Under the pieces are notes generated by a model. It made no database searches and had not been told where the DNA came from. It saw nothing but the letters and a program-made list of their open reading frames with translations. Below are positions 1,455 through 50,384 of a DNA stretch of 64,000 nt, piece after piece (the first letter of the stretch is position 1; every line of letters begins with the position of its first letter). The translations under genes and the position numbers were made by a program. Location: assembly GCA_030710605.1 (NCBI GenBank), contig CP092870.1:56381532-56445531 (forward strand), read 5' to 3'. The stretch is from Cordylochernes scorpioides. Taxonomy: Eukaryota > Arthropoda > Arachnida > Pseudoscorpiones > Chernetidae.

Positions 1455-4400
1455 ATTCTTGAATGTCAATTTCTTGTATCAAGAACCGTTCATCTATGTT
1501 GAACGTATTATACTTGAATGTCAATTTATTGGATCAAGACCAGTTCATCTATGTTGTAGGTATTATACTTGAATGTCAATTTCTTGGATCAAGAACAGTT
1601 CATCTATGTTGCACGTATTATACTCGAATATCAATTTCTTGGATCAAAAACAGTTCATCTATGTTGCACGTATTATACTTGAATGTCAATTTCTTGGATC
1701 AAGAACAGTTCATCTATGTTGCACGTATTACACTTGAATGTCAATTTCTTGGATCAAGAACAGTTCATCTATGTTGCACGTATTATACTTGAATGTCAAT
1801 TTCTTGGATCAAGAACAGTTCATCTATGTTGAACGTATTATACTTGAATGTCAATTTATTGAATCAAGACCAGTTCATCTATGTTGTAGGTATTATACTT
1901 GAATGTCAATTTCTTGGATCAAGAACAGTTCATCTATGTTGCACGTATTATACTCGAATGTCAATTTCTTGGATCAAGAACAGTTCATCTATGTTGCAGG
2001 TATTATACTTGAATGTCAATTTCTTGTATCAAGAACAGTTCATCTATGTTGCACGTATTATACGTGAATGTCAATTTCTTGGATCAAGAACAGTTCATCT
2101 ATGTTGCACGTATTATACTTGAATGTCAATTTCTTGGATCAAGAACAGTTCATCAATGTTGCACGTATTATACTTGAATGTCAATTTCTTGGATCAATAA
2201 CAGTTCATCTATGTTGAACGTATTATACTTGAATGTCAATTTATTGGATCAAGACCAGTTCATCTATGTTGTAGGTATTATACTTGAATGTCAATTTCTT
2301 GGATCAAGAACAGTTCATCTATGTTGCACGTATTATACTCGAATTTCAATTTCTTGGATCAAGAACAGATCATCTATGTTGCAGGTATTATACTTGAATG
2401 TCAATTTCTTGTATCAAGAACAGTTCATCTATGTTGCACGTATTATACTTGAATGTCAATTTCTTGGATCAAGAACAGTTCATCTATGTTGCACGTATTA
2501 TACTTGAATGTCAATTTCTTGGATCAAGAACAGTTAATCAATGTTGCACGTATTATACTTGAATGTCAATTTCTTGGATCAAGAACAGTTCATCTATGTT
2601 GAACGTATTACACTTGAATGTCAATTTCTTGGATCAAGAACAGTTCATCTATGTTGCACGTATTATACTTGAATGTCAATTTCTTGGATCAAGAACAGTT
2701 CATCTATGTTGCACATATTATACTTGAATGTCAATTTCTTGGATCAAGAACAGTTCATCTATGTTAAACGTATTATACTTGAATGCCAATTTCTTGGATC
2801 AAGAACAGTTCATCTATGTTGCACGTATTATACTTGAATGTCAATTTCTTGTATCTAGAACCGTTCATCTATGTTGAACGTATTATACTTGAATGTCAAT
2901 TTCTTGGATCAAGAACAGTTCATCTATGTTGAACGTATTATACTTGAATGTCAATTCCTTGGATCAAGAACAGTTCATCTATGTTGCAGGTATTATACTT
3001 GACTGTAAATTTCTTGGATCAAGAACAGTCCATCTATGTTGCACGTATTATACTTGACTGTAAATTTCTTGGATCAAGAACAGTTCATCTATGTTGGACG
3101 TATTATACTTGAATGTCAATTTCTTGGATCAAGTCGAGTTCATCTATGTTTCACGTATTATACTTGAATGTCAATTTCTTGGATCAAGAACAGTCTATCT
3201 ATGTTACACGTATTATACTTGAATGTCAATTTCTTGGATCAAGAACAGTTCATCTATGTTGCACGTATTATACTTGAATGTCAATTTCTTGGATCAAGAA
3301 CAGTCTATCTATGTTACACGTATTATACTTGAATGTTGATTTCTTGGATCAAGAACAGTTCATCTATGTTGCACGTATTATACTTGAATGTCAATTTCTT
3401 GGATCAAGAACAGTTCATCTATGTTGCACGTATTATACTTGACTGTCAATTTCTTGGATCAAGAACAATTCATCTATGTTGCACGTATTATACTTGACTG
3501 TAAATTTCTTGGATCAAGAACTGTTCATCTATGTTGCACGTATTATACTTGAATGTCAATTTCTTGGATCAAGAACAATTCATCTATGTTGCACGTATTT
3601 TACTTGAATGTCAATTTCTTGGATCAAGAACAATTCATCTATGTTGCACGTATTATACTTGACTGTAAATTTCTTGGATCAAGAACAGTCCATCTATGTT
3701 GAACGTATTATACTTGAATGTCAATTTCTTGGATCAAGAGCAGTCTATCTATGTTGCACGTATTATACTTGAATGTCAATTTCTTGGATCAAGAACAGTT
3801 CATCTATGTTGCACGTATTATACTTGAATGTCAATTTCTTGGATCAAGAACAGTTCATCTATGTTAAACGTATTATACTTGAATGCCAATTTCTTGGATC
3901 AAGAACAGTTCATTTTTGTTGGACGTATTATACTTGAATGTCAATTTCTTGGATCAAAAACAGTTCATCTATGTTGTACGTATTATACTTGAATGTCAAT
4001 TTCTTGGATCAAGAACGGTCCATCTATGTTGCACGTATTATACTTGAATGTAAATTTCTTGGATCAAGTCGAGTTCATCTATGTTTCACCTATTATACTT
4101 GAATGTCAATTTCTTGGATCAAGAACAGTCTATCTATGTTACACGTATTATACTTGAATGTCAATTTCTTGGATCTGAGCAGTCTATCTATGTTGAACGT
4201 ATTATACTTGAATGTCAATTTCTTGGATCAAGAACAGTTCATCTATGTTGAACGTATTATACTTTAATGTCAATTCCTTGGATCAAGAACAGTTAAACTA
4301 TGTTGGACGTATTATACTTGAATGCCAATTTCTTGGATCAAGAACAGTTCATTTATGTTGGACGTATTATACTTGAATGTCAATTTCTTGGATCAAAAAC

Positions 4401-4600
4401 AGTTCATCTATGTTACACGTATTATACTTGAATGTCAATTTCTTGGATCAAGAACAGTTCATCTATGTTGCACGTATTATACTTGAATGTCAATTTCTTG
4501 GATCTAGAACAGTTCATCTATGTTACACGTATTATACTTGAATGTTAATTTCTTGGATCAAGAACAGTTCATCTATTTTTCATAGGTATTCTTGAATGTT
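1455..4600 (+). repeat. 55-bp satellite array, about 57 units
   Basis: A 55-bp unit (containing TTCTTGGATCAAGAACAGTT, itself a partial palindrome TTCTTGGATCAAGAA) is repeated head to tail with point variation. Apparent 109-residue reading frames in the array arise because three 55-bp units make 165 bp, a multiple of three; they are not genes. Variant bases recur at intervals, so blocks of several units were probably duplicated together. Confidence 0.95.
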
Positions 4601-20316: not shown

Positions 20317-21410
20317 TGTGTTGTGACCTCTTGTACGAGACCCCTCTATGTTTTGACCTCTTGTACGAGACCCCTCTGTGTTGTGACCTCTTGTACGAGA
20401 CCCCTCTGTGTTGTGATCTCTTGTACGAGACCCCTCTATGTTTTGACCTCTTGTACGAGACCTCTCTGTGTTGTGACCTCTTGTACGAGACCCCTCTATG
20501 TTGTGATCTTTTGTACGAGACCCCTCTATGTTTTGACCTCTTGTACGAGACCTCTCTGTGTTGTGACCTCTTGTACGAGACCCCTCTATGTTGTAATCTC
20601 TTGTACGAGACCCCTCTATGTATTGACCTTTTGTACGAGACCTCTCTGTGTTGTGACCTCTTGTACGAGACCCCTCTGTGTTGTGATCTCTTGTACGAGA
20701 CCCCTCTGTGTTGTGATCTCTTGTACGAGACCCCTCTGTGTTGTGACCTCTTGTACGAGACCCCTCTGTGTTGTGATTTCTTATACGAGACCCCTCTGTG
20801 TTGTGATCTCTTGTACGAGACCCCTCTGTGTTGTGACCTCTTGTACGAGACCCCTCTGTGTTGTGATCTCTTGTACGAGACCCCCTGTGTTGTGACCTCT
20901 TGTACGAGACCCCTCTGTGTTGTGACCTCTTGTACGAGACCCCTCTGTGTTGTGACCTCTTGTACGAGACCCCTCTGTGTTGTGATCTCTTGTACGAGAC
21001 CCCCTGTGTTGTGACCTCTTGTACGAGACCCCTCTGTGTTGTGACCTCTTGTACGAGACCCCTCTGTGTTGTGACCCCTTGTACGAGACCCCTCTGTGTT
21101 GTGACTTCTTGTACGAGACCCCTCTGTGTTGTGACCTCTTGTACGAGACCCCTCTGTGTTGTGACCACTTGTACGAGACCCCTCTGTGTTGTGACCCCTT
21201 GTACGAGACCCGTCTGTGTTGTGACCCCTTGTACGAGACCCCTCTGTGTTGTGATCTCTTGTACGAGACCCCTCTGTGTTGTGATCTCTTGTACGAGACC
21301 CCTCTGTGTTGTGACCTCTTGTACGAGACCCCTCTGTGTTGTGACCTCTTGTACGAGACCCCTCTGTGTTGTGACCTCTTGTACGAGACCCGTCTGTGTT
21401 GTGACCTATG
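20317..21410 (+). repeat. 30-bp minisatellite, about 36 units
   Basis: The unit is GTTGTGACCTCTTGTACGAG plus ACCCCTCTGT. Because 30 is a multiple of three and the unit lacks stops in several frames, long open frames run through it on both strands (up to 301 codons on the minus strand). Two 29-bp units (near 20881 and 21000) shift the frame. There is no sign of selection for one frame, so I call it a satellite. Confidence 0.95.
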
Positions 21411-23457: not shown

Positions 23458-25300
23458 GAGGTCAAGGCCCTGCAATAATCACTCTATTTCCTCACCTTCC
23501 TTGGTCCCAAGGCTCTGCAGTAGACGCTCTATGGCCTTTCTTGGTCCCAAGGCCCTGCAGTAGTCGCTCTATGGCCTTTCTTGGTCCCAAGGCCCTGCAG
23601 TAGTCGCTCTATAGCCTTTCTTGGTCTCAGGACTCTTCAGTAGTCGCTCTATGGCCTTTCTTGGTCCGAAAGCCCTGCAGTAGTCGCTCTATAACCTTCT
23701 TTTGTGTCCAGGCCCTGCAGTAGTGATTCTATAGCCTTCTTTTGTGTCAAGGCCCTGCAGTAGTCGCTCTATGGACTTCCTTGGTCTCAGGGCCCTGCAG
23801 TAGTCACTCTATGGCCTTTCTTGGTCCCAAAGCCCTGCAGTAGTCGCTCTATAACCTTCTTTTGTGTCAAGGCCCTGCAGTAGTGATTCTATAGCCTTAT
23901 TTTGTGTCAAGGCCCTGCAGTAGTGGTTCTATAGCCTTCCTTTGTGTCAGGGCCCTGCAGTAGTGGTTTTATAGCCTTCCTTTGTGTCAAGGCCCTGCAG
24001 TAGTGGTTCTATAGCCTTCCTTTGTGTCAGGGCCCTGCAGTAGTGGTTCTATAGCCTTCCTTTGTGTCAAGGCCCTGCAGTAGTGGTTCTATAGACTTCC
24101 TTTGTGTCAGGGCCCTGCAGTAGTGGTTCTATAGCCTTCCTTTGTGTCAGGGCCCTGCAGTAGTCGCTCTATAGCCTTCCTTTGTGTCAAGGCCCTGCAG
24201 TAGTGATTCTATAGCCTTCTTTTGTGTCAAGGCCCTGCAGTAGTCGCTCTATAGCCTTCCTTGGTCTCAGGGCTCTGCAGTAGTCGCTCTATAGCCTTCC
24301 TTTGTGTCAAGGCCCTGCAGTAGTCACGCTATAGCCTTCCTTTGTGTCAGGGCCCAGCAGTAGTCACTCTATAGCCTTCCTTGGTCTCAGGGCTCTGCAG
24401 TAGTCGCTCTATAGCCTTCCTTTGTGTCAGGGCCCAGCAGTAGTCGCTCTATAGCCTTCCTTGGTCTCAGGGCCCTGCAGTAGTCACGCTATAGCCTTCC
24501 TTTGTGTCAAGGCCCTGCAGTAGTCACGCTATAGCCTTCCTTTGTGTCAAGGCCCTGCAATAGTCACGCTATAGCCTTCCTTTGTGTCAAGGCCCTGCAG
24601 TAGTCACGCTATAGCCTTCCTTTGTGTCAGGGCCCAGCAGTAGTCGCTCTATAGCCTTCCTTGGTCTCAGGGCCCTGCAATAGTCACGCTATAACCTTCC
24701 TTTGTGTCAGGGCCCTGCAATAGTCACGCTATAACCTTCCTTTGTGTCAGGGCCCTGCAGTAGTCACGCTATAGCCTTCCTTTGTGTCAAGGCCCTGCAG
24801 TAGTCACGCTATAGCCTTCCTTTGTGTCAGGGCCCAGCAGTAGTCGCTCTATAGCCTTCCTTGGTCTCAGGGCCCTGCAATAGTCACGCTATAACCTTCC
24901 TTTGTGTCAGGGCCCTGCAATAGTCACGCTATAACCTTCCTTTGTGTCAGGGCCCTGCAGTAGTCACGCTATAGCCTTCCTTTGTGTCAGGGCCCTGCAA
25001 TAGTCACGCTATAACCTTCCTTTGTGTCAGGGACCTGCAGTAGTCACGCTATAGCCTTCCTTTGTGTCAGGGCCCTGCAGTAGTCACGCTATAGCCTTCC
25101 TTTGTGTCAGGGCCCTGCAATAGTCACGCTATAACCTTCCTTTGTGTCAGGGCCCTGCAGTAGTCACGCTATAGCCTTCCTTTGTGTCAAGGCCCTGCAA
25201 TAGTCACGCTATAACCTTCCTTTGTGTCAGGGCCCAGCAGTAGTCGCTCTATAGCCATCCTTGGTCTCAGGCTCCTGCAGTAGTCGCTCTATGGCCTTCC
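23458..25300 (+). repeat. 40-bp minisatellite, about 46 units
   Basis: The consensus unit contains GGCCCTGCAGTAGTCACGCT, then ATAGCCTTCCTTTGTGTCAA. Variants TTGGTCTCAG, TTGGTCCCAA and TTTGTGTCA(A/G) alternate, and longer blocks recur (for example 24641-24840 resembles 24821-25020), indicating block duplication. No open frame is maintained because 40 is not a multiple of three. Confidence 0.95.
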
Positions 25301-27741: not shown

Positions 27742-27813
27742 TCCAGGGTAGCCTAGTAGACATGGCATCTGCCCGGTAAGCGGAACACTGTGGGTTCGAT
27801 TCCCATCCCTGGA
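27742..27813 (+). tRNA. tRNA-Thr(GGU)-like sequence heading SINE family B
   Basis: Seven-pair acceptor TCCAGGG/CCCTGGA, D arm with GCC/GGC, anticodon stem TCTGC/GCGGA with the seven-base loop CCGGTAA (anticodon GGU), and a T arm GTGGG-TTCGATT-CCCAT with a good B box. A T-rich Pol III stop follows at 27817. Position 33 is C instead of U and the D stem has only three pairs. Since the downstream body recurs at 53.1-53.3 kb, this is more likely a SINE head than a working tRNA gene. Confidence 0.65.
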
Positions 27814-27972
27814 CACTTTTATTTTTCCGTTTATCATTTCTCTTCACAATTCATCCTTTCATACTTCATCCCTAAGGTTAGAAATAATCGTTATTTCTCC
27901 CCTTGAAATAAAGTTAGAATTTTCGTTCAAAAGAAACATTTGCGGTATAATTATCAAGCTTCGTTCTACAAA
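27742..27972 (+). mobile_element. SINE family B
   Basis: The tRNA-like head is followed by a body with CACAATTCATCCTTTCATAC, TTCATCCCTAAGG, AATCGTTATTTCTCC and AAAAGAAACATTTGCGGTA. The same body occurs as an inverted pair at 53028-53342. Confidence 0.75.
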
Positions 27973-29647: not shown

Positions 29648-30087
29648 TGTCAAATTATTTGACAAACATAACAGTTTTAATCTCAGTTATGCGGAAAGTA
29701 TATTGTTTATTTGTTAAGTGAACTGATCTCCCACGCCTTCCCATTGGACGAATGTGGCCATGTTTGTACATAAAAGAGGGTTGAAACGGAATGCGAGGAG
29801 TCGTGGAGTGGTGTTCTAGTTGAGACGCTTAAAGCGTTCTCTGTGTGCTTGTCTAGTGTTTCTCCTCGCATACCTGTGAAACCCCGGTCCGCTCCCTGCC
29901 AACGCTACAATAAAGCTAAGTACTGTTTTATTTTATTTAACAAATCGTGAGTTGTTTTTATCGCCCTTTTGTTGTTAGTGTTGTACTCTTGAGTGTACGC
30001 TTTTATGTGTATTAAGGTACATTTAATTTAGGCCCTATCTTATTCCTTTTTTGTGTACGTAACCCGCAAAAGTATTAACTTTTGTCA
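29648..30087 (+). mobile_element. Solo LTR, 440 bp, with AAAT target-site duplication
   Basis: TGTCAAATTATTTGACAAAC ... AACTTTTGTCA, flanked by AAAT at 29644-29647 and 30088-30091. It contains a TATA-like ACATAAAAGAGG (about 29768), the conserved AACCCCGGTCCGCTCC block and AATAAAGC (about 29912). It is the same family as 13570-14040. Both insertions give four-base duplications. Confidence 0.88.
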
Positions 30088-30120
30088 AAATAACCATTCT
30101 TGATTAATCGAGAAAAGCTA

Positions 30121-30162
30121 ACCACGGACGCGTTTCGGGCTGTTGGCCCTCATCAGCGTGGT
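30121..30162 (-). ncRNA. Type I hammerhead ribozyme, intact core
   Basis: Minus-strand order: stem I strand ACCACG; box CTGATGA (30156-30150); stem II GGGC/GCCC with loop CAACA; GAAA (30136-30133); two-pair stem III AC/GT with loop GC; cleavage base C at 30127; stem I strand CGTGGT. Stem I has six perfect pairs. Every invariant core position is present. Predicted cleavage is between 30127 and 30126 on the minus strand. The very short stem III is typical of retroelement hammerheads, which often act as dimers. Confidence 0.85.
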
Positions 30163-30262
30163 GCGGTTGTGTAGCGGTCTTACGCAATTCTGGCCTTACC
30201 CGTTTCATGATTTTTAAGGATGCCTGAATGGCCAATTTTTTGGTCGTTGAGGTACAGATTGC

Positions 30263-30304
30263 ACCACGCTGATGAGGGCCAACAGCCCGAAACGCGTCCA
30301 TAGT
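30263..30304 (+). ncRNA. Type I hammerhead ribozyme, intact core, weakened stem I
   Basis: CTGATGA (30269-30275), GGGC-CAACA-GCCC, GAAA (30289-30292), stem III ACGCGT, cleavage base C (30298). The stem I strands ACCACG and CATAGT keep four of six pairs; both mismatches are C-A and look like G-to-A changes from the CGTGGT seen in the minus-strand copy. It points away from the copy at 30121-30162. Confidence 0.75.
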
Positions 30305-30392
30305 TAGCTTTTCTTGATTAATCAATAATGGGTATTTGGCCAATTCTGGAATAATCAAATATAAACGAGAATAATTGATATTTATTCCGATA

Positions 30393-32929: not shown

Positions 32930-35240
32930 GATAGTACCAGAATATTTCTTCCATCATCAATGATCCCACAATCCAAGAACTGAAGTAATCTTAATTGGGA
33001 GACGATTGTATCAAAAGATCAATCTTCCAACATCGATATTTCTACCATCTCAGAATAAAATAATTCAGGCATTAGGAAAGATGATATCAAGATTATTTTT
33101 CCGTTATATCGAGGATTTCAGAGTCCCAGAACCAAAGGATTCTAAAATAGGAGATTGTGGAATCAATACCATTCTTCAATCATCGATGATTCCACAGTCC
33201 CAGAACAAAATAATCATTTCATTGAAGAAGATAGTATCAATATCATTATGCTTTTTCATATCAATGATTCCACAGTCCCAGAACAAAGGGATTCAAATAT
33301 AGAGAGGAGATGATAATATCAAGATCATTCTTCAATCATCGATGATTCGGCAATCCCAGGCAAAATATCATTCTTAATGACAGACGACAGTACCAAAATG
33401 TCGATTTTCATCATCAATGGTCCTACATTTCCAGAACAAAGGAATTCTTACATGGGAGAAAATGGCATCAATATCATTCTTCCATTATCCATGATCCCAC
33501 AGTTCCAGAACAAAATGATTCTTACATTGGAGAAAATGACATCAATATCATTCTCCCATTATCCATGGTCTCACAGTTCCAGAAGAAAAGGATTCGTACA
33601 TGGGAGACAATGGTATCAATATCATTCTCCCATTATCCATGGTCCCACAGTTCCAGAACAAAAGGATTCTTACATTGGAAACAATGGTATCAATATCATT
33701 CTTCCATTATTCATGATCCCACAGTTCCAGAACAAAAGGATTCTTACATGGGAGAAAATGGCATCAATATCATTCTTCCATTATCCATGATCCCACAGTT
33801 CCAGAACAAAATGATTCTTACATTGGAGAAAATGACATCAATATCATTCTCCCATTATCCATGGTCTCACAGTTCCAGAAGAAAAGGATTCGTACATGGG
33901 AGACAATGGTATCAATATCATTCTCCCATTATCCATGGTCCCACAGTTCCAGAACAAAAGGATTCTTACATTGGAAACAATGGTATCAATATCATTCTTC
34001 CATTATCCATGATCCCACAGTTCCAGAATAAAAGGATTCGTACATGGAAGACAATGGCATCAATATCATTCTTCCATTAACGATGATTCCACAGTTCCAG
34101 AACAAAATGATTCGTACATGGGAGACAATGGCATCAATATCATTCTTCCATTATCGATGGTCCCACAGTTCCAGAACAAAGGGATTCGAACATGGAAGAC
34201 AATGGTATCAATATCATTCTTCCATTATCGATGATTCTACAGTTCGAGAAAAAATGATTCGTACATGGGAGACAATGGCATCAATATCATTATTCCATTA
34301 TCGATGGTCCCACAGTTCCAGAACAAAAGGATTCGTACATGGGAGTCAATGGCATCAATATCATTCTTCCATTATCGATGGTTCCACAGTTCCAGAACAA
34401 AAGGATTCGTACATGGGAGACAATGGTATCAATATCATTCTTCCATTATCGATGATTCCACAGTTCCAGAACAGAAGGATTCTTACATGGGAAACAATGG
34501 TATCAATATCATTCTTCCATTATCGATGATCACACAGATCCAGAACAAAAGGATTCTTACATAGAAGACAATGGCATCAATATCATATTTCTATCATCGA
34601 TGGTCCCACAGTTCCAGAGCAAAAGGATTCTTACATGGGAGACAATGGCATCGATATCATTCTTCCACTTTATCGATGATTCAACAGTCTCAGAATAGAA
34701 TGATAGTTTTTAATCTCTCATTATCTTATTACACGTAGTACAACCCACGATAAGAGACCTCTTTTACTGCAAATGCACCGCATCTCTACGCACATGTGGA
34801 ATGTAGTTCGACTTTTGAATTTTCAAGTGTGCCAGAGCCCTGGTAATAAAAGTATTCTTTTTTGGGAGATACTGGTATCAATGTCATTCTTCCATCATCG
34901 ATGATTGCATAGTTTCTGTTTAAAAGAATTTTCACATATGAAACGATGAAATCATAATAAATTTCTTCCATTATCCATAATTCCATAGTCTCAGATCAAA
35001 AGATTTCTTACATAAGAAACGTAAGCTTCAATATAATTCTTCCATTATCCATGATTCCATAGTCTCAGATCAAAAGATTTCTTACATAAGAAACTATGGC
35101 TTCAATATAATTATTCTATTATCCATGATTCCATAGTCTCAGGTCAAAAGATTTCTTACATAAGAAACTATGGCATCAATATAATTCTTCCATTATCGAT
35201 TATTCCATAGTCTCAGATAAAAAAAATTCTTAAACAAAAA
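32930..35240 (+). repeat. 74-bp satellite array with a 296-bp higher-order block
   Basis: The unit contains CACAGTTCCAGAACAAAAGG, TACATGGGAGACAATGGCAT and CAATATCATTCTTCCATTAT. The central part (33400-34700) is regular at 74 bp; the edges are diverged, and a SINE fragment interrupts the array at 34728. Blocks of four units (296 bp) are duplicated: the AGTTCCAGAACAAAATG variant at 33501 recurs at 33797 with its neighbours in the same order. Confidence 0.93.
34728..34850 (-). mobile_element. SINE family A fragment inside the 74-bp array
   Basis: TTACACGTAGTACAACCC, ATGCACCGCATCTCTACGC and ATGTAGTTCGACTTTTG match the minus strand of the SINE body. Array units continue on both sides. Confidence 0.65.
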
Positions 35241-35646: not shown

Positions 35647-35679
<33 letters not shown>

Positions 35680-35680
35680 T
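35589..35680. repeat. (AT)n tract with duplicated 40-bp flank
   Basis: The word TTAACTTTTTTTTCAAGATT plus GTAATATATATAT occurs twice in succession and the second copy leads into a longer (AT)n run that abuts the retrozyme array at about 35679. Confidence 0.85.
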
Positions 35681-35907
35681 GGAAAATTTGCCGGGAGGAA
35701 ATTAATCCATGGAAGCAATGGTCGCCTCTCCCGTCAAAATAAACGTCAGAATCTGACGCCATCTATTGACCGTCGCCGCAACAACCGACCCGATGCCGCT
35801 AGTTGCGGCGACGGTCAATAGATGACGTCAGATTCTGACGTTTATTTTGACGGGAGAGGCGACCATTGCTTCCATGGATTAATTTCCTCCCGGCAAATTT
35901 TCCATCT
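35680..35907. repeat. Head-to-head inverted junction at the retrozyme 5' edge
   Basis: 35680-35783 is the reverse complement of about 35804-35907 with one clear mismatch (GACGCCATC versus GATGACGTC region), separated by a 20-nt loop. It shows that a second, truncated copy was joined in inverse orientation during insertion. Confidence 0.9.
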
Positions 35908-36013
35908 ATGTTTTGCATTGGCATAGATTTGGCCCAGCCACATTGCCAGCAAAACACCTCTTTGGTAGATTGTGAGGATTCCATTAGATCCCGTGTGGAT
36001 CTCATGGAATAAA

Positions 36014-36068
36014 GTCCGCCCTAGACTGACGAGGGCCATTAGCCCGAAACCATGGTCTCTAGGTGGAC
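36014..36068 (+). ncRNA. Type I hammerhead ribozyme, retrozyme unit 1
   Basis: Stem I: GTCC (36014-36017) and CCTAGA (36020-36025) pair with TCTAGG (36058-36063) and GGAC (36065-36068) across a small internal loop (GC/T). Core box CTGACGA (36026-36032). Stem II GGGC/GCCC with loop CATTA. GAAA at 36046-36049. Stem III ACC/GGT with loop AT. Cleavage base C at 36057, so the predicted cut is 36057/36058. All invariant residues are present and the three stems are fully paired. Confidence 0.9.
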
Positions 36069-36336
36069 GCTTATCAGTTTGCCAAAGTTGGTGTTGTGGC
36101 TTTGTCACCGACCCGATGCCGCTAGTTGCGGCGACGGTCAATAGATGACGTCAGATTCTGACGTTTATTTTGACGGGAGAGGCGACCATTGCTTCCATGG
36201 ATTAATTTCCTCCCGGCAAATTTTCCATCTATGTTTTGCATTGGCATAGATTTGGCCCAGCCACATTGCCAGCAAAACACCTCTTTGGTAGATTGTGAGG
36301 ATTCCATTAGATCCCGTGTGGATCTCATGGAATAAA

Positions 36337-36391
36337 GTCCGCCCTAGACTGACGAGGGCCATTAGCCCGAAACCATGGTCTCTAGGTGGAC
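36337..36391 (+). ncRNA. Type I hammerhead ribozyme, retrozyme unit 2
   Basis: Identical in sequence to the unit 1 ribozyme, exactly 323 bp downstream. Box CTGACGA at 36349-36355, predicted cut 36380/36381. Confidence 0.9.
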
Positions 36392-36655
36392 GCTTATCAG
36401 TTTGCCAAAGTTGGTGTTGTGGCTTTGTCACCGACCCGATGCCGCTAGTTGCGGCGACGGTCAATAGATGGCGTCAGATTCTGACGTTTATTTTGACGGG
36501 AGAGGCGACCATTGCTTCCATGGATTAATTTCCTCCCGGCAAATTTTCCATCTATGTTTTGCCAATAGATTTGGCCCAGCCACATTGCCAGCAAAACACC
36601 TCTTTGGTAGATTGTGAGGATTCAATTAGATCCCGTGTGGATCTCATGGAATAAA

Positions 36656-36710
36656 GTCCGCCCTAGACTGACGAGGGCCATTAGCCCGAAACCATGGTCT
36701 CTAGGTGGAC
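36656..36710 (+). ncRNA. Type I hammerhead ribozyme, retrozyme unit 3
   Basis: Identical ribozyme 319 bp after unit 2; predicted cut 36699/36700. The unit before it has TTTTGCCAATAGATT where the others have TTTTGCATTGGCATAGATT, which explains the four-base shorter spacing. Confidence 0.9.
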
Positions 36711-36837
36711 GCTTATCAGTTTGCCAAAGTTGGTGTTGTGGCTTTGTCACCGACCCGATGCCGCTAGTTGCGGCGACGGTCAATAGATGGCGTCAGATTC
36801 TGACGTTTATTTTGACGGGAGAGGCGACCATTGCTTC

Positions 36838-36838
36838 C

Positions 36839-36865
<27 letters not shown>
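36838..36865. repeat. (AT)n tract between retrozyme and Penelope-like element
   Basis: About 27 bp of alternating AT directly joins the truncated end of the last retrozyme unit (GCTTCCAT) to the pseudo-LTR of the Penelope-like element (TATAATAATAAATAG). Confidence 0.9.
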
Positions 36866-36872
<7 letters not shown>

Positions 36873-37265
36873 AATAAATAGTTATTTAATTTTATAGTCC
36901 AGTTTTGTATTAAGATTATCTTCACTATTATGATCATTTAAATTCAAATTATAAAATTTGTAAAATGTTATTAATTTGTAGATAGAGAGAGAAAAAAAAA
37001 TCCTTTACTTCTACTACATCCTCAAGTTAATTATATATTTATAATTAATAACAATAAAAATTAACAAAGTAACGTCTATTACATCGGCTTTTACACGTCA
37101 TTCAGACATACTCTAATCCTATATATAGAATAATCGAAGAGAGAATATATATAATAGTTAGAAAAAAGAGAGAAAGACAGAACCATGCACTTTTAATCAA
37201 ACTAATAATAAGGAAAAAAAAAAAAGAGTTTTATAAAGAAGGTAGATAAAATTGTTAGTATATAT
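36865..37265 (-). repeat. Pseudo-LTR A (3' end of the minus-strand PLE)
   Basis: TATAATAATAAATAGTTATT ... GTAGATAAAATTGTTAGTAT. It is directly repeated at 41131-41530 and inverted at 44335-44745, with only small differences such as homopolymer lengths. Confidence 0.85.
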
Positions 37266-37449
37266 ATATATATATTTTTTATTATTTTATATTTTATCCT
37301 TTTTTTTTTAAAGATTTTTAAAGGTTTTTTTATTTTATAATATGATTATAAATAGTTGTATTTAGTAATATATCTATAGTATGAATTAACATTTGTTATA
37401 AGTTTGGATATTATGTTTTGAAACCCTAATGGTAGACCAGACATACACA

Positions 37450-37570
37450 AAAGACTTTAAATTGAAATGAATTGGAAAAAGAGATCTGCTGGAACGGGGA
37501 TCTTCAGATAAAATTCCAACGACATTTCACCCCTTCTTTATTATGTCATAGATCTCTTTTAAACCGGATT
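37450..37570 (-). other. Structured 3' UTR element of the PLE (minus copy)
   Basis: In sense orientation two complementary arms (AAAAGAGATC ... GATCTCTTTT) enclose GTTGGAA ... TTCCAGC, GGGGTGAAATGTC and CTGAAGATCCCC. The plus copy at 44045-44135 has GCTGGAA instead of GTTGGAA, so a C-G pair became U-G and the hairpin is kept. GGGG and CCCC could pair as a pseudoknot. Function unknown. Confidence 0.5.
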
Positions 37571-38165
37571 TTATGTGTTAATATTAAGTTGTTTCAGTGA
37601 AATATTTAAATGAACATATATAACAGATACAAGTGTTAACAAATTCAAACTGTAAACCTACCTCGGCCGCTGCGTCCTCCATTGTGAATATCTATTTCTG
37701 GCTGGCACATGTCGCGGGAGGGGAATGTCCCCCCACATTTCAAATTTAGACCATTTATTCAGAATTTTTTTGAACAACAAGAAAATTAAAGAAGATAGGA
37801 AAAATAGTTAAAGGAAGAAAGCTAAATTTTATAATCTTTACAGCTAGTTATATCAAAATAACTGATTTAACACTTATTCATCTTTTAATATTCCTTTAAA
37901 AAGGCAAATTATAAGAGTTTAATAAAGCTATTAATTGTGCAAATTCATCTTTATTTAACTTCCATTTTCCTCCCCAGAAATTGGAGATTAAACAAAAATG
38001 AACTATATACTTTAACACTTTAAAAATCTTGTGAAAAAATCTTTTAATCAGTTATTTAATCAAAGTTTAATTAACTGTTAAAGATTATAAATTTGTATTA
38101 GTTAATATTAAGAGAAATTATAGAAAGTTGATTTCATAAATGGATATTTCCATTTATTTTTTTTT
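37571..38165 (-). other. PLE 3' UTR (minus copy)
   Basis: Sequence between the RT stop and the structured element. It includes a GC-rich island (CCTCGGCCGCTGCGTCCTCC, about 37670) that is conserved with changes in the plus copy (about 43925-43950). No ORF. Confidence 0.6.
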
Positions 38166-39704
38166 TTAATATTTTATAATTGATATACTGTTGAAATATT
38201 TTACTTGTTTGATACTAAATTTGTTTTTAATAAATTCCATGTTTAAATTTTTAACATCTTCTATGAAATTATCTAATATATTATTTATTCTATAAAATCT
38301 TAGAAACTGACCATAATATATACCTTTACAGCAATTTAATGATATATTAGAATTCATATTACAGTATTTTATAATATTGAAATTATAATTACTCTTTTTA
38401 TTATAAACTCTAACAGCACTATTTGTAAGGTCTATATTCAAGTCTAAAAAGTTAACTTTTTTGTTTCTATAAATTTTTTCATTGTTCTTAAGTTTCAAGT
38501 ATTTAGGATATATTTCAGGTATTAATTTTTTAAACAGTGGATTATTAAATATTATTATGTCATCTACATATCGGAATATTTGCCAATTAATATTATTTTG
38601 TAGAAAGTATTCTCTTTCGTACCAGAACAATATTAGATTTGCTAGTAACGGACTAGAAGATGTACCCATGGGAACGCCTTCTGATTGAATATATATTTTA
38701 TTTTTAAATTCTATATAGTTAAAATTTAAAAATGTTTCCAGTAGAGTTTTTGCTGTTTTAAGATCTAATTTAAATGTTTTATATCTGTTATGAATAATTT
38801 TAATGTAGAAAGTTTTGTCATTAATGAATTCATTAAATAAATTGGTTATTTTATTATTTAGATCTCTTAAATTTATTTTAGAATATAGGTCCTCAAAGTC
38901 AAATGTGTGTACTGTTTCAATGTTTGTCCAATTGTTCATTAAATAATTAATGATTTTTTTATTTGAGTCGATAAATTTATAATTATATTTATTAGTTAAT
39001 TTATTTATAATAAATTGTAGTGTTGAGGCTAATTGTATATCAATATTTTTTATGACTGAATTTATACCAGATGTGATTGTTCTGAAAGAAATAGGTTTTT
39101 TGTGTAGTTTAGGAATTATATAGAACTTTGGTATGTTTGGATTTTTGTGGTTATTATAAATTTTTAGTGAATTTTCAACATTTTTGATGTCTTTTTTGAT
39201 TTTTGTTCCTGTAGTTCTAGCAAAAGTGTATTTATGATTATTATCAATTTCCTTTTTTAGTATATCGTGGTATAGATTTTTACAAATTAAAGATAAATTA
39301 TTGGGACATTTATCTATAGGAGTGATAATATAGTCCTTCTGTAAATTAATTATATTTTCTTTAAAAGAAGGAATGTCTGAATTGGGTTTTGTGTATTTAA
39401 GTGTATTATTATAATAATTTATAATTTCCTTTTTAATATTATGTTTCCATTCCAGAAAAGTAAATTCTGGAATACTGTATTTTATACTAGTTTTATTTAT
39501 GAAAATATCTATATCTTTTAATATAGATTTAATTGTATTATTATAATTGTGTTTAATTTGAGGTATATATTTATACCCTTTATTTAAAATTTCTTGATAT
39601 TCTGGATTTAAAAAAGAAAAGTTGCTAGTTAATATATGACCTGAGTACTTATATTTATCAATATAGTTGTTGCAATTACATTTAATTTTTTTAAAATTTG
39701 CCAA
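38166..39704 (-). pseudogene. Penelope-like reverse transcriptase, minus copy (frameshifted from its endonuclease)
   Basis: 512 codons from the first usable start, but the frame is open further upstream into the endonuclease linker. Residues 197-210 carry PKLHKKPISFRTI (RT 1/2 region); 267-277 TFDFEDLYSKI, with the first catalytic Asp; 341-356 SEGVPMGTSSSPLLAN (motif B); 379-382 YVDD, the catalytic pair; and 417-424 VNFLDLNI. These are typical of Penelope RTs, which are related to telomerase RT. The last codons differ from the plus copy because one base changed in the A-run near 38165-38175, giving an early stop. A one-base loss near 39919 separates the RT from the endonuclease frame. The catalytic residues are intact. 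Confidence 0.93.
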
Positions 39705-39787
39705 ATTATTAATAAATTGGTTATAATTGCAAACTAAATTACCTATATTTTTATTGTATCTCCAGATTGTTTTAAAATTTAAATTTT

Positions 39788-40585
39788 TTATAGGGAAAAG
39801 ATTATTGATGATTTGGTTATTAAAAATATCATTAAATTTAATATGATTAAATAAATTGTTATTAAATTTAATGATAATATTAATGTTATTAGTAGTTTAT
39901 TTAATTTTTCTGTATTTAAAATGTCGTGTGTGATATCTATTAATCTGTTAGTCAGATTATGAATTTTAATATATTCTATGAGTTTGATAAATTTATTATT
40001 ATTTAGTTTAAATAATGTTTTAATAAATTTATCGACGAAGTTGTTAGTGTACATTTGTTTTGGGTCCAGTAATTCTTCAAATTCAATGTAACCTAATTTA
40101 TTTGTAGTTTTACCTCTAGTTTTATTAGGTTTAGTTTTAAATTCATTTTTTTTGTATTTGCAACTGATTTCATAGGTTGAAATTTCTTCTGTTTGTGGTT
40201 TGTATGTGTAGTTTAATTCGTCGTTAAGTCCATAAGGGAATAATGTGTTGTGTTTATAAATGTAGTTGTTTTCTAATAATAGTCGTTGTTTTTTGTTTTG
40301 ACATATGTCTAGTATTTCTATCTTAAAGTTGTTAAAAGTATGTAATAGATTGTGTTCTTTCATATATATATTACCAATTGATTTTTTAGCGTGGTTTCTA
40401 TGTAGGTTTATTCGTATATTTAATGGATTACAAGTTTGTCCTATATATGATAGTTGACAAATTTGGCATGTTAATTTATAAATAGTATTCACTAATTTAT
40501 AACTAGTTGTTTGAAAAGTGTCATGGTTCTTAAGAGAGGGACAAGTTTGACAATTTTTTCTTAGGCAATTCTTAGCGAGTTTAAA
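39788..40585 (-). pseudogene. GIY-YIG endonuclease domain of the PLE, N-terminal position
   Basis: From the ATG at 40492 the domain shows TIYKL (residues 3-7) and SYIGQT (15-20), the two strands of the GIY-YIG signature; R27 within NIRINLHR; E74 in LLLENNYIYK; and a closing TLFPYGLN. The frame is open upstream to about 40585 and there encodes a cysteine cluster (KNCLRKNCQTCPSL) likely to bind zinc; no in-frame ATG is seen there, so the true start may use another codon or lie in a lost segment. After about residue 190 the frame diverges from the plus copy (THDILNTEK versus THDIFKYRK) and stops at 39788. The domain nicks DNA to prime reverse transcription in PLEs. Confidence 0.9.
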
Positions 40586-41130
40586 TTAACATAAAAGAGG
40601 TGCTAACACTAATATGTTTGTAGTTTTTTTTAGTTTTTTTAGTTTGTTATTCTTATGAATTTTTAAATATATTTTACTTAATTGTTTTTGTGGTGATAAA
40701 ATTTGTAATAAATTGAATAATTAATCTATAAATATATAGATATTACTGTTTGTTATCTGTTATATTTTTAAGAATAACTAATAAAAAAAACATCTTTAAA
40801 CTAACTAAACAATGAAAAAAACAAAAGTTCTGAAATTATTTTTTCTAGAATTACTTTTATAATTTAATTTTTAATAATCAAACAATGAAAGATAATTAAA
40901 ATTTGTATGAAGATTTATTTATATTAGAATATCTAATATAATTTAATTTGTATATTATGTTATATATAAAAAATATATCATAGAGCAAGCTCATATGAAT
41001 TAATATAGTGTAGAAACTATATAACAAAATTATAACAGTGATTCTAATTTTAAAACTTAAGGAGCAAACTGATAATAATGATAACTTATATTAGTTAGAT
41101 TTGATTAGATTAGCAAGCTAAATCTAAATT
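40586..41130 (-). other. PLE 5' leader between pseudo-LTR B and the endonuclease
   Basis: AT-rich, non-coding, present only in the minus copy because the plus copy is 5'-truncated. No promoter motif can be assigned with confidence. Confidence 0.5.
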
Positions 41131-41530
41131 AATTATAATAATAAATAGTTATTTAATTTTATAGTCCAGTTTTGTATTAAGATTATCTTCACTATTATGA
41201 TCATTTAAATTCAAATTATAAAATTTGTAAAATGTTATTAATTTGTAGATAGAGAGAGAAAAAAAAAATCCTTTACTTCTACTACATCCTCAAGTTAATT
41301 ATATATTTATAATTAATAACAATAAAAATTAACAAAGTAACGTCTATTACATCGGCTTTTACACGTCATTCAGACATACTCTAATCCTATATATAGAATA
41401 ATCGAAGAGAGAATATATATAATAGTTAGAAAAAAGAGAGAAAGACAGAACCATGCACTTTTAATCAAACTAATAATAAGGAAAAAAAAAAGAGTTTTAT
41501 AAAGAAGGTAGATAAGATTGTTAGTATATA
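41131..41530 (-). repeat. Pseudo-LTR B (5' end of the minus-strand PLE)
   Basis: Direct repeat of 36865-37265 (shared TAGTCCAGTTTTGTATTAAG, CACGTCATTCAGACATAC, AACCATGCACTTTTAATC). Confidence 0.85.
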
Positions 41531-41584
41531 ATATATATTTATAATTAATAACAATAAAAATTAACAAAGTAACGTTTTAAACAT
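41530..41584. other. Templated junction between the two PLE copies
   Basis: About 43 bp (ATATTTATAATTAATAACAA through AACAAAGTAACG) duplicate an internal part of pseudo-LTR B (about 41300-41342) in the same orientation and are followed by the inverted, truncated copy. This is a patch expected from template switching during target-primed reverse transcription. Confidence 0.7.
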
Positions 41585-43499
41585 TAAAACATTATTTAAA
41601 CTAAATAATAATAAATTTATCAAACTCATAGAATATATTAAAATTCATAATCTGACTAACAGATTAATAGATATCACACACGACATCTTTAAATACAGAA
41701 AAATTAAACAAACTACTAATAACATTAATATTATCATTAAATTTAATAACAATTTATTTAATCATATTAAATTTAATGATATTTTTAATAACCAAATCAT
41801 CAATAATCTTTTCCCTATAAAAAATTTAAATTTTAAAACAATCTGGAGATACAATAAAAATATAGGTAATTTAGTTTGCAATTATAACCAATTTATTAAT
41901 AATTTGGCAAATTTTAAAAAAATTAAATGTAATTGCAACAACTATATTGATAAATATAAGTTCTCAGGTCATATATTAACTAGCAACTTTTCTTTTTTAA
42001 ATCCAGAATATCAAGAAATTTTAAATAAAGGGTATAAATATATACCTCAAATTAAACACAATTATAATAATACAATTAAATCTATATTAAAAGATATAGA
42101 TATTTTCATAAATAAAACTAGTATAAAATACAGTATTCCAGAATTTACTTTTCTGGAATGGAAACATAATATTAAAAAGGAAATTATAAATTATTATAAT
42201 AATACACTTAAATACACAAAACCCAATTCAGACATTCCTTCTTTTAAAGAAAATATAATTAATTTACAGAAGGACTATATTATCACTCCTATAGATAAAT
42301 GTCCCAATAATTTATCTTTAATTTGTAAAAATCTATACCACGATATACTAAAAAAGGAAATTGATAATAATCATAAATACACTTTTGCTAGAACTACAGG
42401 CACAAAAATCAAAAAAGACATCAAAAATGTTGAAAATTCACTAAAAATTTATAATAACCACAAAAATCCAAACATACCAAAGTTCTATATAATTCCTAAA
42501 CTACACAAAAAACCTATTTCTTTCAGAACAATCACATCTGGTATAAATTCAGTCATAAAAAATATTGATATACAATTAGCCTCAACACTACAATTTATTA
42601 TAAATAAATTAACTAATAAATATAATTATAAATTTATCGACTCAAATAAAAAAATCATTAATTATTTAATGAACAATTGGACAAACATTGAAACAGTACA
42701 CACATTTGACTTTGAGGACCTATATTCTAAAATAAATTTAAGAGATCTAAATAATAAAATAACCAATTTATTTAATGAATTCATTAATGACAAAACTTTC
42801 TACATTAAAATTATTCATAACAGATATAAAACATTTAAATTAGATCTTAAAACAGCAAAAACTCTACTGGAAACATTTTTAAATTTTAACTATATAGAAT
42901 TTAAAAATAAAATATATATTCAATCAGAAGGCGTTCCCATGGGTACTTCTTCTAGTCCGTTATTAGCAAATCTAATATTGTTCTGGTACGAAAGAGAATA
43001 CTTTCTACAAAATAATATTAATTGGCAAATATTCCGATATGTAGATGACATAATAATATTTAATAATCCACTGTTTAAAAAATTAATACCTGAAATATAT
43101 CCTAAATACTTGAAACTTAAGAACAATGAAAAAATTTATAGAAACAAAAAAGTTAACTTTTTAGACTTGAATATAGACCTTACAAATAGTGCTGTTAGAG
43201 TTTATAATAAAAAGAGTAATTATAATTTCAATATTATAAAATACTGTAATATGAATTCTAATATATCATTAAATTGCTGTAAAGGTATATATTATGGTCA
43301 GTTTCTAAGATTTTATAGAATAAATAATATATTAGATAATTTCATAGAAGATGTTAAAAATTTAAACATGGAATTTATTAAAAACAAATTTAGTATCAAA
43401 CAAGTAAAATATTTCAACAGTATATCAATTATAAAATATTTAAAAAAAAATAAATGGAAATATCCATTTATGAAATCAACTTTCTATAATTTCTCTTAA
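41585..43499 (+). CDS. Penelope-like reverse transcriptase, plus copy, 5'-truncated but open
   Basis: Continuous open frame from about 41585 to the TAA at 43497-43499. It enters in the linker after the endonuclease (IEYIKIHNLTNRLIDITHDI...), so the endonuclease is absent, and includes the whole RT domain with SFRTI, FDFEDLY, GVPMGTSSSPLLAN, YVDD and FLDL motifs identical to the minus copy. The C-terminus is 19 residues longer than in the minus copy (ending KWKYPFMKSTFYNFS), which is probably the ancestral form. Compared with the minus copy it also keeps the endonuclease-RT linker in frame, so the parental element is likely to have encoded one EN-RT protein. Confidence 0.9.
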
Positions 43500-44334
43500 T
43501 ATTAACTAATACAAATTTATAATCTTTAACAGTTAATTAAACTTTGATTAAATAACTGATTAAAAGATTTTTTCACAAGATTTTTAAAGTGTTAAAGTAT
43601 ATAGTTCATTTTTGTTTAATCTCCAATTTCTGGGGAGGAAAATGGAAGTTAAATAAAGGTGAATTTGCACAATTAATAGCTTTATTAAACTCTTATAATT
43701 TGCCTTTTTAAAGGAATATTAAAAGATGAATAAGTGTTAAATCAGTTATTTTGATATAACTAGCTGTAAAGATTATGAAATTTAGCTTTCTTCCTTTAAC
43801 TATTTTTCCTTTCTTCCTTAATTTTCTTGTTGTTCAAAAAAATTCTGAATAAATGGTCTAAATTTGAAATGTGGGGGGACATTCCCCTCCCGCGACATGT
43901 GTCAGCCAGAAATAGATATTCACAATGGAGTACGCCGCGGCCGAGGTAGGTTTACAGTTTGAATTTGTTAACACTTGTATCTGTTATATATGTTCATTTA
44001 AATATTTCACTGAAACAACTTAATATTAACACATAAAATCCGGTTTAAAAGAGATCTATGACATAATAAAGAAGGGGTGAAATGTCGCTGGAATTTTATC
44101 TGAAGATCCCCGTTCCAGCAGATCTCTTTTTCCAATTCATTTCAATTTAAAGTCTTTTGTGTATGTCTGGTCTACCATTAGGGTTTCAAAACATAATATC
44201 CAAACTTATAACAAATGTTAATTCATACTATAGATATATTACTAAATACAACTATTTATAATCATATTATAAAATAAAAAAACCTTTAAAAATCTTTAAA
44301 AAAAAAAGGATAAAATATAAAATTATAAAAAAAA
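43500..44334 (+). other. PLE 3' UTR (plus copy) with structured element
   Basis: Inverted equivalent of 37266-38165. The structured part lies at about 44045-44135 with arms AAAAGAGATC/GATCTCTTTT and GCTGGAA/TTCCAGC. The GC-rich island reads GGAGTACGCCGCGGCCGAGG. Confidence 0.7.
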
Positions 44335-44736
44335 TATATATATATATACTAACAATCTTATCTACCTTCTTTATAAAACTCTTTTTTTTTTTTTTTCCTT
44401 ATTATTAGTTTGATTAAAAGTGCATGGTTCTGTCTTTCTCTCTTTTTTCTAACTAATATATATATTCTCTCTTCGATTATTCTATATATAGGATTAGAGT
44501 ATGTCTGAATGACGTGTAAAAGCCGATGTAATAGACGTTACTTTGTTAATTTTTATTGTTATTAATTATAAATATATAATTAACTTGAGGATGTAGTAGA
44601 AGTAAAGGATTTTTTTTTCTCTCTCTATCTACAAATTAATAACATTTTACAAATTTTATAATTTGAATTTAAATGATCATAATAGTGAAGATAATCTTAA
44701 TACAAAACTGGACTATAAAATTAAATAACTATTTAT

Positions 44737-44745
<9 letters not shown>
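44335..44745 (+). repeat. Pseudo-LTR C (3' end of the plus-strand PLE)
   Basis: Reverse complement of pseudo-LTR A, ending TTAAATAACTATTTATTATT and running directly into (AT)n at 44741-44768. Confidence 0.85.
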
Positions 44746-47224: not shown

Positions 47225-48985
47225 CGGTCAATAGAGAGAGATATTTGAATCCCAGGTTCCTGGAACACAGAACACCAACTACCCGGGGAGTCACCAGTAT
47301 GGACTAGTGTTGAGTACTTTTACTGGTGTTTTGATTGCTGAGTTGAACCAGTTGACCAGGAATGCTGAGGTTGTACAGCTAGAGAGAGAGATATTTATAA
47401 CCCAGGGAGCACAGAACGCCAACTACCCGGGGAGTCACCAGTATGGACTGGTGTTGAGTACTTTTACTCGTGTTTTGATTGCTGAGTTGAACCAGTTGAC
47501 CAGGAATGCTGAGGTTGTACAGCTAGAGAGAGAGATATTTATAACCCAGGGAGCACAGAACACCAACTACCCGGGGAGTCACCAGTATGGACTGGTGTTG
47601 AGTACTTTTACTCGTGTTTTGATTGCTGAGTTGAACCAGTTGACCAGGAATGCTGAGGTTGTACAGCTAGAGAGAGAGATATTTATAACCCAGGGAGCAC
47701 AGAACACCAACTACCCGGGGAGTCACCAGTATGGACTAGTGTTGAGTACTTTTACTCGTGTTTTGATTGCTGAGTTGAACCAGTTGACCAGGAAGTTCCA
47801 TGCTGAGGTTGTACAGCTAGAGAGAGAGATATTTATAACCCAGGGAGCACAGAACACCAACTACCCGGGGAGTCACCAGTATGGACTAGTGTTGAGTACT
47901 TTTACTCGTGTTTTGATTGCTGAGTTGAACCAGTTGACCAGGAAGTTCCATGCTGAGGTTGTACAGCTAGAGAGAGATATTTATAACCCAGGGAGCACAG
48001 AACGCCAACTACCCGGGGAGTCACCAGTATGGACTGGTGTTGAGTACTTTTACTTGTGTTTTGATTGCTGAGTTGAACCAGTTGACCAGGAATGCTGAGG
48101 TTGTACAGCTAGAGAGAGAGATATTTATAACCCAGGGAGCACAGAACGCCAACTACCCGGGGAGTCACCAGTATGGACTAGTGTTGAGTACTTTTACTCG
48201 TGTTTTGATGGCTGAGTTGAACCAGTTGACCAGGAATGCTGAGGTTGTACAGCTAGAGAGAGAGATATTTATAACCCAGGGAGCACAGAACACCAACTAC
48301 CCGGGGAGTCACCAGTATGGACTAGTGTTGAGTACTTTTACTCGTGTTTTGATTGCTGAGTTGAACCAGTTGACCAGGAAGTTCCATGCTGAGGTTGTAC
48401 CGCTAGAGAGAGAGATATTTATAACCCAGGGAGCACAGAACACCAACTACCCGGGGAGTCACCAGTATGGACTAGTGTTGAGTACTTTTACTCGTGTTTT
48501 GATTGCTGAGTTAAACCAGTTGACCAGGAAGTCCCATGCTGAGGTTGTACAGCTAGAGAGAGAGATATTTATAACCTAGGGAGCACAGAACACCAACTAC
48601 CCGGGGAGTCACCAGTATGGACTAGTGTTGAGTACTTTTACTCGTGTTTTGATTGCTGAGTTGAACCAGTTGACCAGGAATGCTGAGGTTGTACAGCTAG
48701 AGAGAGATATATTTATAACCCAGGGAGCACAGAACACCAACTACCCGGGGAGTCACCAGTATGGACTAGTGTTGAGTACTTTTACTCGTGTTTTGATTGC
48801 TGAGTTGAACCAGTTGACCAGGAAGTTCCATGCTGAGGTTGTACAGCTAGAGAGAGATATTTATAACCCAGGGAGCACAGAACACCAACTACCCGGGGAG
48901 TCACCAGTATGGACTGGTGTTGAGTACTTTTACACGTGTTTTGATTGCTGAGTTGAACCAGTTAACCAGGAAGTTCCATGCTGAA
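47225..48985 (+). repeat. 144/150-bp tandem array, 12 units
   Basis: GCTGAGTTGAACCAGTTGAC recurs at 47337, 47481 and on to 48948. Two unit lengths occur: 144 bp, and 150 bp with an extra six bases (AAGTTCCATGCT instead of AATGCT). Both are multiples of three, so one plus-strand frame encoding a 48/50-residue unit (LSTFTRVLIAELNQLT, VVQLEREIFITQGAQN) stays open for up to 254 codons. Two units have lost AG from the AGAGAGAG run, shifting the frame, and one has a stop (TAG, about 48577). The 5' part of each unit resembles CAGGTTCCTGGA sequence that also occurs singly at 49464. Confidence 0.92.
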
Positions 48986-49954: not shown

Positions 49955-50375
49955 TATTGTATTATAAATATCTATATATGTACATTATTTCATCTTCAAC
50001 GCCAATGTTTACATATATTTACATATAATTCCATCCTTTTTTTAAATTCAAAAATCCTTTTTACTAAGAAACAACATTGATGTCTCATTTTCGACTTTAT
50101 TTATATTACTGGTTATCAAACTTTTCAACTTTTGAAACTCTATCTTCAGCTAACATGTGAATGTTTCTTAACGCTTAATTTTCACATAGTTTTGAACGGG
50201 AAGTATATAACAATGATTTATTTATAATTTCATTTAAAAAGACAAAGGTCGCAACTCCTATCAAAATAAACGTCAAAATCAGACGTCATCTATTGACCGT
50301 CGCCCCAAACTAGCAGACTCAAGTAGGTAACAAAGTCACAACACCAACTTGGCAAACTGAGAAGCGTCCACCTAG
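49955..50375 (-). repeat. Left arm of a 420-bp inverted pair containing a retrozyme fragment
   Basis: Pairs in reverse complement with about 52520-53015 (shared TACATTATTTCATCTTCAACG, CTAAGAAACAACATTGATGTC, TTAACGCTTAATTTTC). Its inner end (50245-50375) is a decayed minus-strand retrozyme-family segment (CGTCATCTATTGACCGTCGC, AGAAGCGTCCACCTAGA). Confidence 0.75.
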
Positions 50376-50384
50376 ACTATTTTG

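Follow-up and report, generated by a model that had tools for sequence, protein, structure and literature searches.

Penelope-like elements (PLEs) have been proposed as the movers of animal retrozymes on the basis of the co-occurrence of both, of the hammerheads that they share and of their tandem layout (PMC7229834 and PMC7761336, in the parts available). The insertions of PLEs themselves leave a characteristic footprint: copies lie head to head, one of the inverted pLTRs carries a 31-bp tail and the target-site duplication measures 8-10 bp (Arkhipova 2013, PMC3846280, accessible portion). Furthermore, as described in the available sections of PMC11167929, PLEs start reverse transcription (RT) from two adjacent internal sites, both strands of an AT-rich target being cut and extended, and Frangieh et al. 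observed no start-site difference there between the top and the bottom strands. As for retrozymes, no account of arms lying head to head, of tails or of start sites was found in a mostly open-access literature that included the available parts of PMC11722881 and PMC8490949. We class the locus presented here as a retrozyme, and the PLE-like anatomy of its insertion is newly described.

This locus lies in a stretch of DNA of 64 kb that was analysed as a whole (hereafter, the window), and the coordinates of its features are collected in Table 1. A sequence-only reading had taken it for an animal retrozyme array, an identification that is supported by the anatomy, the unit size of 319-323 bp, the type I hammerhead, the dispersed copies and the lack of a long ORF, all of them in line with the available description of such elements (PMC7229834). 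The head-to-tail units of 323 and 319 bp were borne out as well. Regarding the extent given for the array (35680-36838), the array is there, but the true element runs from 35675 to 36840 and includes an inverted left arm that the earlier reading lacked; the whole is a head-to-head insertion inside (TA)n DNA, and the outer (3′) end of its left arm is a long end, at unit position 126 (u126). The unit had been said to have no ORF, and its longest ATG-started frame comprises in fact 68 aa, with no long ORF in the unit, including those for the RT and the GIY-YIG endonuclease of a PLE. The suggested recent activity fits too, in that the left arm equals unit 3 over all 108 bp of the arm and, at another locus (L027), the units of both arms are identical. 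Altogether, we regard the locus as an animal-type non-LTR retrozyme, moved by a PLE in a head-to-head insertion from two start sites, with a probability of about 0.77.

Table 1. Positions in the window of the retrozyme, its predicted ribozymes and start-site hairpin, and the neighbouring PLE.
Feature	Position	Strand	Basis or remark
(AT)n flank, left	35649..35677	.	
Inverted left arm, reverse complement of unit 126-19	35675..35782	-	blastn 99% over 108 bp; inverted repeat 97%
Unit 1, 323 bp	35784..36106	+	
Proposed start-site hairpin, unit 1	35851..35892	+	GC stem 35851-35859 with 35886-35892; folds and end positions
Type I hammerhead ribozyme 1, predicted cut after 36057	36014..36068	+	structural scan
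Unit 2, 323 bp, identical to unit 1	36107..36429	+	
Type I hammerhead ribozyme 2, predicted cut after 36380	36337..36391	+	structural scan
Unit 3, 319 bp; two substitutions and one small indel relative to unit 1	36430..36748	+	
Type I hammerhead ribozyme 3, predicted cut after 36699	36656..36710	+	structural scan
Partial unit u1-92; outer (3′) end is a short end, u92	36749..36840	+	
(AT)n flank, right; common to the left end of the adjacent PLE	36839..36870	.	
Adjacent PLE, head-to-head pair	36870..44743	.	arms 99% identical; outer ends read by eye
RT ORF of the adjacent PLE	38169-39896	-	PF00078 2.3e-9
GIY-YIG ORF of the adjacent PLE	39791-40585	-	PF01541 2.5e-6
5′-truncated second copy of the adjacent PLE	41565-43499	+	no Pfam match

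The three ribozymes of the array had been described as intact and identical, and a 61-nt ribozyme stretch is the same in all three units; CTGACGA, GGGC/GCCC, GAAA and a two-part stem I were found in each full unit, and the three cut positions were reproduced by a structural scan, which places the predicted cleavage after unit position 274. The stems had also been said to be all fully paired, which goes too far for stem III, where ACC-AU-GGU would need a 2-nt loop. Read from the sequence, stem III alone could form 2 bp closed by a CAUG tetraloop, and its palindrome, ACCAUGGU, would permit an 8-bp stem between two ribozymes. By a strict scan, the window holds four hammerheads (the three of the array and one at 30156 on the - strand) against none in 200 dinucleotide shuffles, so the motif is not a product of chance. 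In its lowest-energy fold, the isolated 61-nt stretch retains stem II and the greater part of stem I, with the core GAC paired with GUC, and the predicted monomer (36058-36380) is strongly self-paired (z -6.3), as published for retrozymes. The check with Rfam models that the sequence-only reading had proposed returned no hammerhead at gathering score in the window, nor at E<=1 in 1.3 kb; the sole match to the array ribozyme was to the RAGATH-1 hammerhead (36021-36062; 12.5 bits and E 4.4 when 65 nt were searched), far below the gathering score. Formally, at the Rfam threshold, this is the outcome that the sequence-only reading had named as one that would speak against it. RF00163 gave no match in the genome of origin and 14 control genomes were equally silent, hence this genome test has no power.

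Across copies, the ribozyme is the less variable part of the unit, with 91/4422 deviations in the ribozyme vs 912/23961 elsewhere in the unit, and with variants common to at least three loci at 3/55 ribozyme sites vs 48/268 other sites (Fisher p 0.02). All 13 core bases are kept in 59 of 73 full copies, which are spread over 32 of 33 loci. The evidence of covariation within the ribozyme is thin: three pairs are changed on both sides (among 33 distinct rows), a number reached by 6/500 shuffles, while slid controls gave 0-4.

The window contains several further features. The hammerhead motif at 30156 belongs to the left arm of a second hammerhead-bearing element (30082-30343), an inverted pair with 75% identity, and is of the minimal kind (CTGATGA, stem III ACGCGT); the HH9 model aligns to this motif (30119-30162) with 20.8 bits, far below the gathering score, and a like motif at 30269, in the right arm, fails the strict scan. 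Sequence related to this element occurs in L041 and, as judged by eye, next to the L015 array (L086). Tandem repeats lie at 1458-4576 (55 bp), 20317-21407 (30 bp), 23495-25300 (40 bp), 33107-35232 (74 bp) and 47262-48972 (144 bp), several frames of the 30-bp array being open for >200 aa. Finally, there is a tRNA-Thr with anticodon GGT at 27742-27814, an anticodon that is unusual for a nuclear animal gene.

The unit had been expected to have genomic copies outside this locus, and these do exist, with at least 130 matching pieces across the 2.62-Gb assembly of 24 contigs that was searched (40 of 450 candidates scored, several pieces per locus). Besides the locus of the window, 36 others were read, giving 37. 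The host is likely an animal by the types of element that it carries, with a weak hint from one decayed copy of the mitochondrial COX1. The copies of the window previously considered decayed, at 7.8, 8.5, 8.8, 50.3, 52.5 and 60.9 kb, indeed have no intact hammerhead motif. One decayed copy (50243-50376, - strand) has a 5′ end that begins with TCTAGG, at the base after the predicted cleavage site. As regards longer arrangements, several retrozyme arrays lie within 19 kb at G000:C5:71468616-71487762, and L011 contains nine full and two partial units in the 3.5 kb read; L011 and the C5 cluster are candidates for a long array or a source locus. Breakpoints at 274-323 and 1-54 were considered as 5′ ends at the cleavage site and discarded, given that the copies read show continuous units there; they seemingly reflect an edge of ~50 bases of the search tool. 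Phage records gave no match.

It is in the outer ends of the copies where the insertion signature is found. Head-to-head arm pairs occur in at least 24 of the 33 non-duplicate loci, and the outer ends form two classes ~30 nt apart, a short one (class limits u86-99, seen 89-97) and a long one (u118-129, seen 122-126). Both outer ends could be read in 24 loci, independent as judged by their flanks, and 22 of them combine one short end with one long end. The exceptions are L009 (short/short) and L052 (long/other), with no long/long case, so that 22 of the 23 loci with both ends in a class have one of each (binomial p 3e-6). The remaining 13 of the 37 loci were left out, namely four duplicates dropped before the count (L013, L022, L023 and L057) and nine in which the two ends could not both be read or an inverted arm was lacking (L011, L015, L017, L020, L025, L055, L056, L058 and L063), among which no inverted arm was seen at L017 and L055. 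Automatic end calls were adjusted by eye in L018, L019, L024, L027, L049, L050, L051, L060, L062 and L064, and the ends of L014, L016, L021, L024, L049 and L061, missing from the automatic calls, were taken from further reads. This one-of-each rule is not predicted by the data of Frangieh et al., since no strand difference in the start site was seen in them (PMC11167929, available sections).

The targets and the inner ends complete this picture. A (TA)>=4 run lies within 14 nt of 25 of the 42 automatically classed ends, vs 61 of 9115 sampled window positions; such (TA)n is present on both sides of the element and absent at other targets, and is therefore not a 3′ tail of the element. Flanking duplications of ~9 bp were read by eye in five loci (L012, L019, L050, L053 and L064) and none was seen at L009, L018, L026 and L052, duplications being unreadable where the target is (TA)n itself. 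The inner ends are scattered, with 17/55 of them at u15-43, beside a GC-rich hairpin, and 5/55 within 3 nt of the predicted cut vs 1.2 expected (p 0.007), four of the latter at u272, three nt off.

How could such insertions come about? Judging by the motif and by published relatives, the retrozyme transcript would cut itself at its type I hammerheads into monomers of ~319-323 nt, which could then be closed into circles. As the mover, we infer the reverse transcriptase-endonuclease of a PLE. It would cut the two strands of an AT-rich target at positions ~9 bp from each other, and the 3′ ends so freed would prime the copying of the retrozyme RNA from two start sites within the unit, in and next to a hairpin. 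One strand would start from each site, either at unit ~92, in the loop, or at unit ~122-126, just 3′ of the hairpin; copying would span from part of a unit to several units, and the two cDNAs would be joined head to head. In unit 1, the short start site would fall after 35875, within the proposed hairpin, and the long one at 35905-35909. The stem of this hairpin is CGGGAGAGG...CCTCCCG, and all seven pairs are kept in 70 of 87 units, the seventh with either of two partners. Its fold energy (z -1.47) is equalled in 17 of 200 shuffles, hence not significant alone, and only 13 of 35 changed cells still pair.

PLEs co-exist with the retrozyme in the genome, and one of them adjoins it. The - copy of this adjacent PLE contains two ORFs in different frames, with the GIY-YIG ORF upstream of the RT ORF, an order which we take to be the layout of the Naiad/Chlamys clade. 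It has a (TA)n tract in common with the retrozyme, ends unlike it and shows no tail. When the end of this PLE was used as a query, no match was returned, including to the PLE itself. The combination of a tailed and a tail-less end is seen, as in the retrozyme, in two other PLE pairs of the genome, on C14 (L065, L066 and L073) and C1 (L071, L072 and L075), each with an RVT_1 match, flanking repeats read by eye and a tail of ~32 nt on one arm only, but not in a third, on C3, which has neither tail nor duplication. Both L066 and L072 carry in their 3′ region a minimal motif like a hammerhead, matched by a loose pattern that had no control for chance, and after it a hairpin, CTGGCCG...CGGCCAG. The loop of this hairpin contains the short start site, and the long start site lies 3′ of its stem; the fold of a third tailed PLE copy, L045, is not of that kind. 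The start region of the retrozyme has the same order of elements as L066 and L072, with a different stem sequence and a shorter loop, so this likeness is one of layout, not of sequence. Among the PLEs seen in the genome, none with an end or tail sequence like that of the retrozyme was found, and a comparison of the retrozyme with 20 PLE loci gave weak matches only, the best at the hammerhead of L041. All in all, the insertion footprint argues for a PLE as the mover of the retrozyme. A further PLE-like pair, L067 and L068 (C1:8984200-8994700), has arms 99.7% identical over 3.7 kb and is young; it has a GIY-YIG match in the genome search and a 750-aa frame without a Pfam match.

What RNA serves as the template can be approached through the likeness of units within loci. 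At 30 diagnostic sites, the differences amount to 330/2908 in the same arm and 98/1058 between opposite arms, vs 32984/127327 between loci, and the mean distance over all sites is 0.039 within loci and 0.059 between them. At L027, differences number 0/1028 and 0/1734, and L026 (14/50), L056 (22/78), L064 (4/15) and L060 (4/10) are heterogeneous. As a rule, then, one same or very similar RNA gives both arms of an insertion. Arms of several units are simply explained by a circle, and a linear multimeric template would explain them as well. Going further along the first line, animal retrozymes might be SINE-like parasites of PLEs, with an RNA that imitates the PLE hairpin and an enzyme pair that copies one circular species from both strands, one subunit from the loop site and the other from the site 3′ of the hairpin, which would give one short and one long end. 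We put this forward tentatively, at somewhat less than even odds, in view of a hairpin whose fold energy lacks significance and of the heterogeneity of some loci.

The other line, in which a PLE would move the retrozyme from a multimeric linear RNA and not from a circle, the hammerhead being dispensable for insertion, is possible and on balance doubtful. Hammerhead mutants of a PLE left in vitro insertion unaffected (Frangieh 2024, PMC11167929, in the part available), ribozymes stand uncut in arms that exceed one unit, and units of 323 and 319 bp occur together in the array of the window, some loci being heterogeneous. However, the identical units in both arms of L027 would be more easily derived from one monomer, and the excess of inner ends near the predicted cut also points away from a linear template, though the cluster at u15-43 is larger.

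With either template, the reading that we prefer retains a PLE as the mover, and a LINE in that role seems highly unlikely. Twin priming yields inverted 5′ parts, and in this reading the inverted arms of the retrozyme would come from ordinary twin priming by a LINE, LINE-like ORFs being seemingly present in the window (by eye). Nonetheless, only one outer end of a twin-primed product is a true 3′ end, whereas 22 of 24 loci have an outer end at each of the two start sites; furthermore, (TA)n flanks the element to the left and to the right and does not occur at other targets, and the end rule is common to the two PLE pairs of the genome. A very slim chance is left to satellite DNA spread by recombination and unequal exchange, with the hammerhead as a relic. 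It would account for the longer arrays of some loci, L011 for example, and for units 1 and 2 being identical and unit 3 different, as unequal exchange would give; against it, short copies dispersed on many contigs, with fixed ends and, in five loci, ~9-bp duplications, need insertion, and the ribozyme is less variable than the rest of the unit. Recombination or unequal exchange may act secondarily at some arrays, although fixed ends and duplications oppose it as the main route. Least probable is a short DNA-transposon or helitron-like element residing in microsatellites, as its (TA)n flanks could suggest, with a hammerhead-like sequence by chance, given that the motif appears in 0/200 shuffles and is less variable than the other parts of the unit, and that the retrozyme has head-to-head arms with variable inner junctions, which to our knowledge are not a trait of such elements.

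The insertion scars of the retrozyme are countable evidence on what moves animal retrozymes, and they name two start sites, with which the PLE-mover idea becomes testable in vitro by an assay already published for a PLE. In turn, the rule of one short and one long end would constrain how PLE enzymes couple both strands of one insertion.

Compared with the metazoan non-LTR retrozymes, in the available description of Cervera and de la Pena 2020 (PMC7229834), the element is likewise a non-coding, dispersed array of tandem units (~170-400 bp in the described ones) with a type I hammerhead, a GC content below 50% and PLEs in the same genome; its GC content, 48.9%, exceeds the <45% of the Figure 1 legend of that paper. 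Beyond what that description contains, it has arms in head-to-head orientation, two outer ends that are fixed, duplications of ~9 bp and a proposed hairpin at the start sites. It resembles the endonuclease-bearing PLEs (PMC3846280 and PMC11167929, accessible portions) in the head-to-head arms, the ~30-nt tail on one arm, the two internal RT starts, the AT-rich target, the duplications (8-10 bp in PLEs) and the hammerhead in the repeat. It differs from PLEs in the absence of a long ORF, in a far shorter unit, in a start-site sequence other than that of the PLEs of this genome and in its two-part stem I, the hammerhead of PLEs being minimal. The satellite retrozymes of newt and axolotl, as compared by description (PMC7229834, available part), likewise have a short palindromic stem III of the dimer type and a unit of ~330 bp, the possible stem III of 2 bp and a tetraloop being as described for axolotl Amex2.
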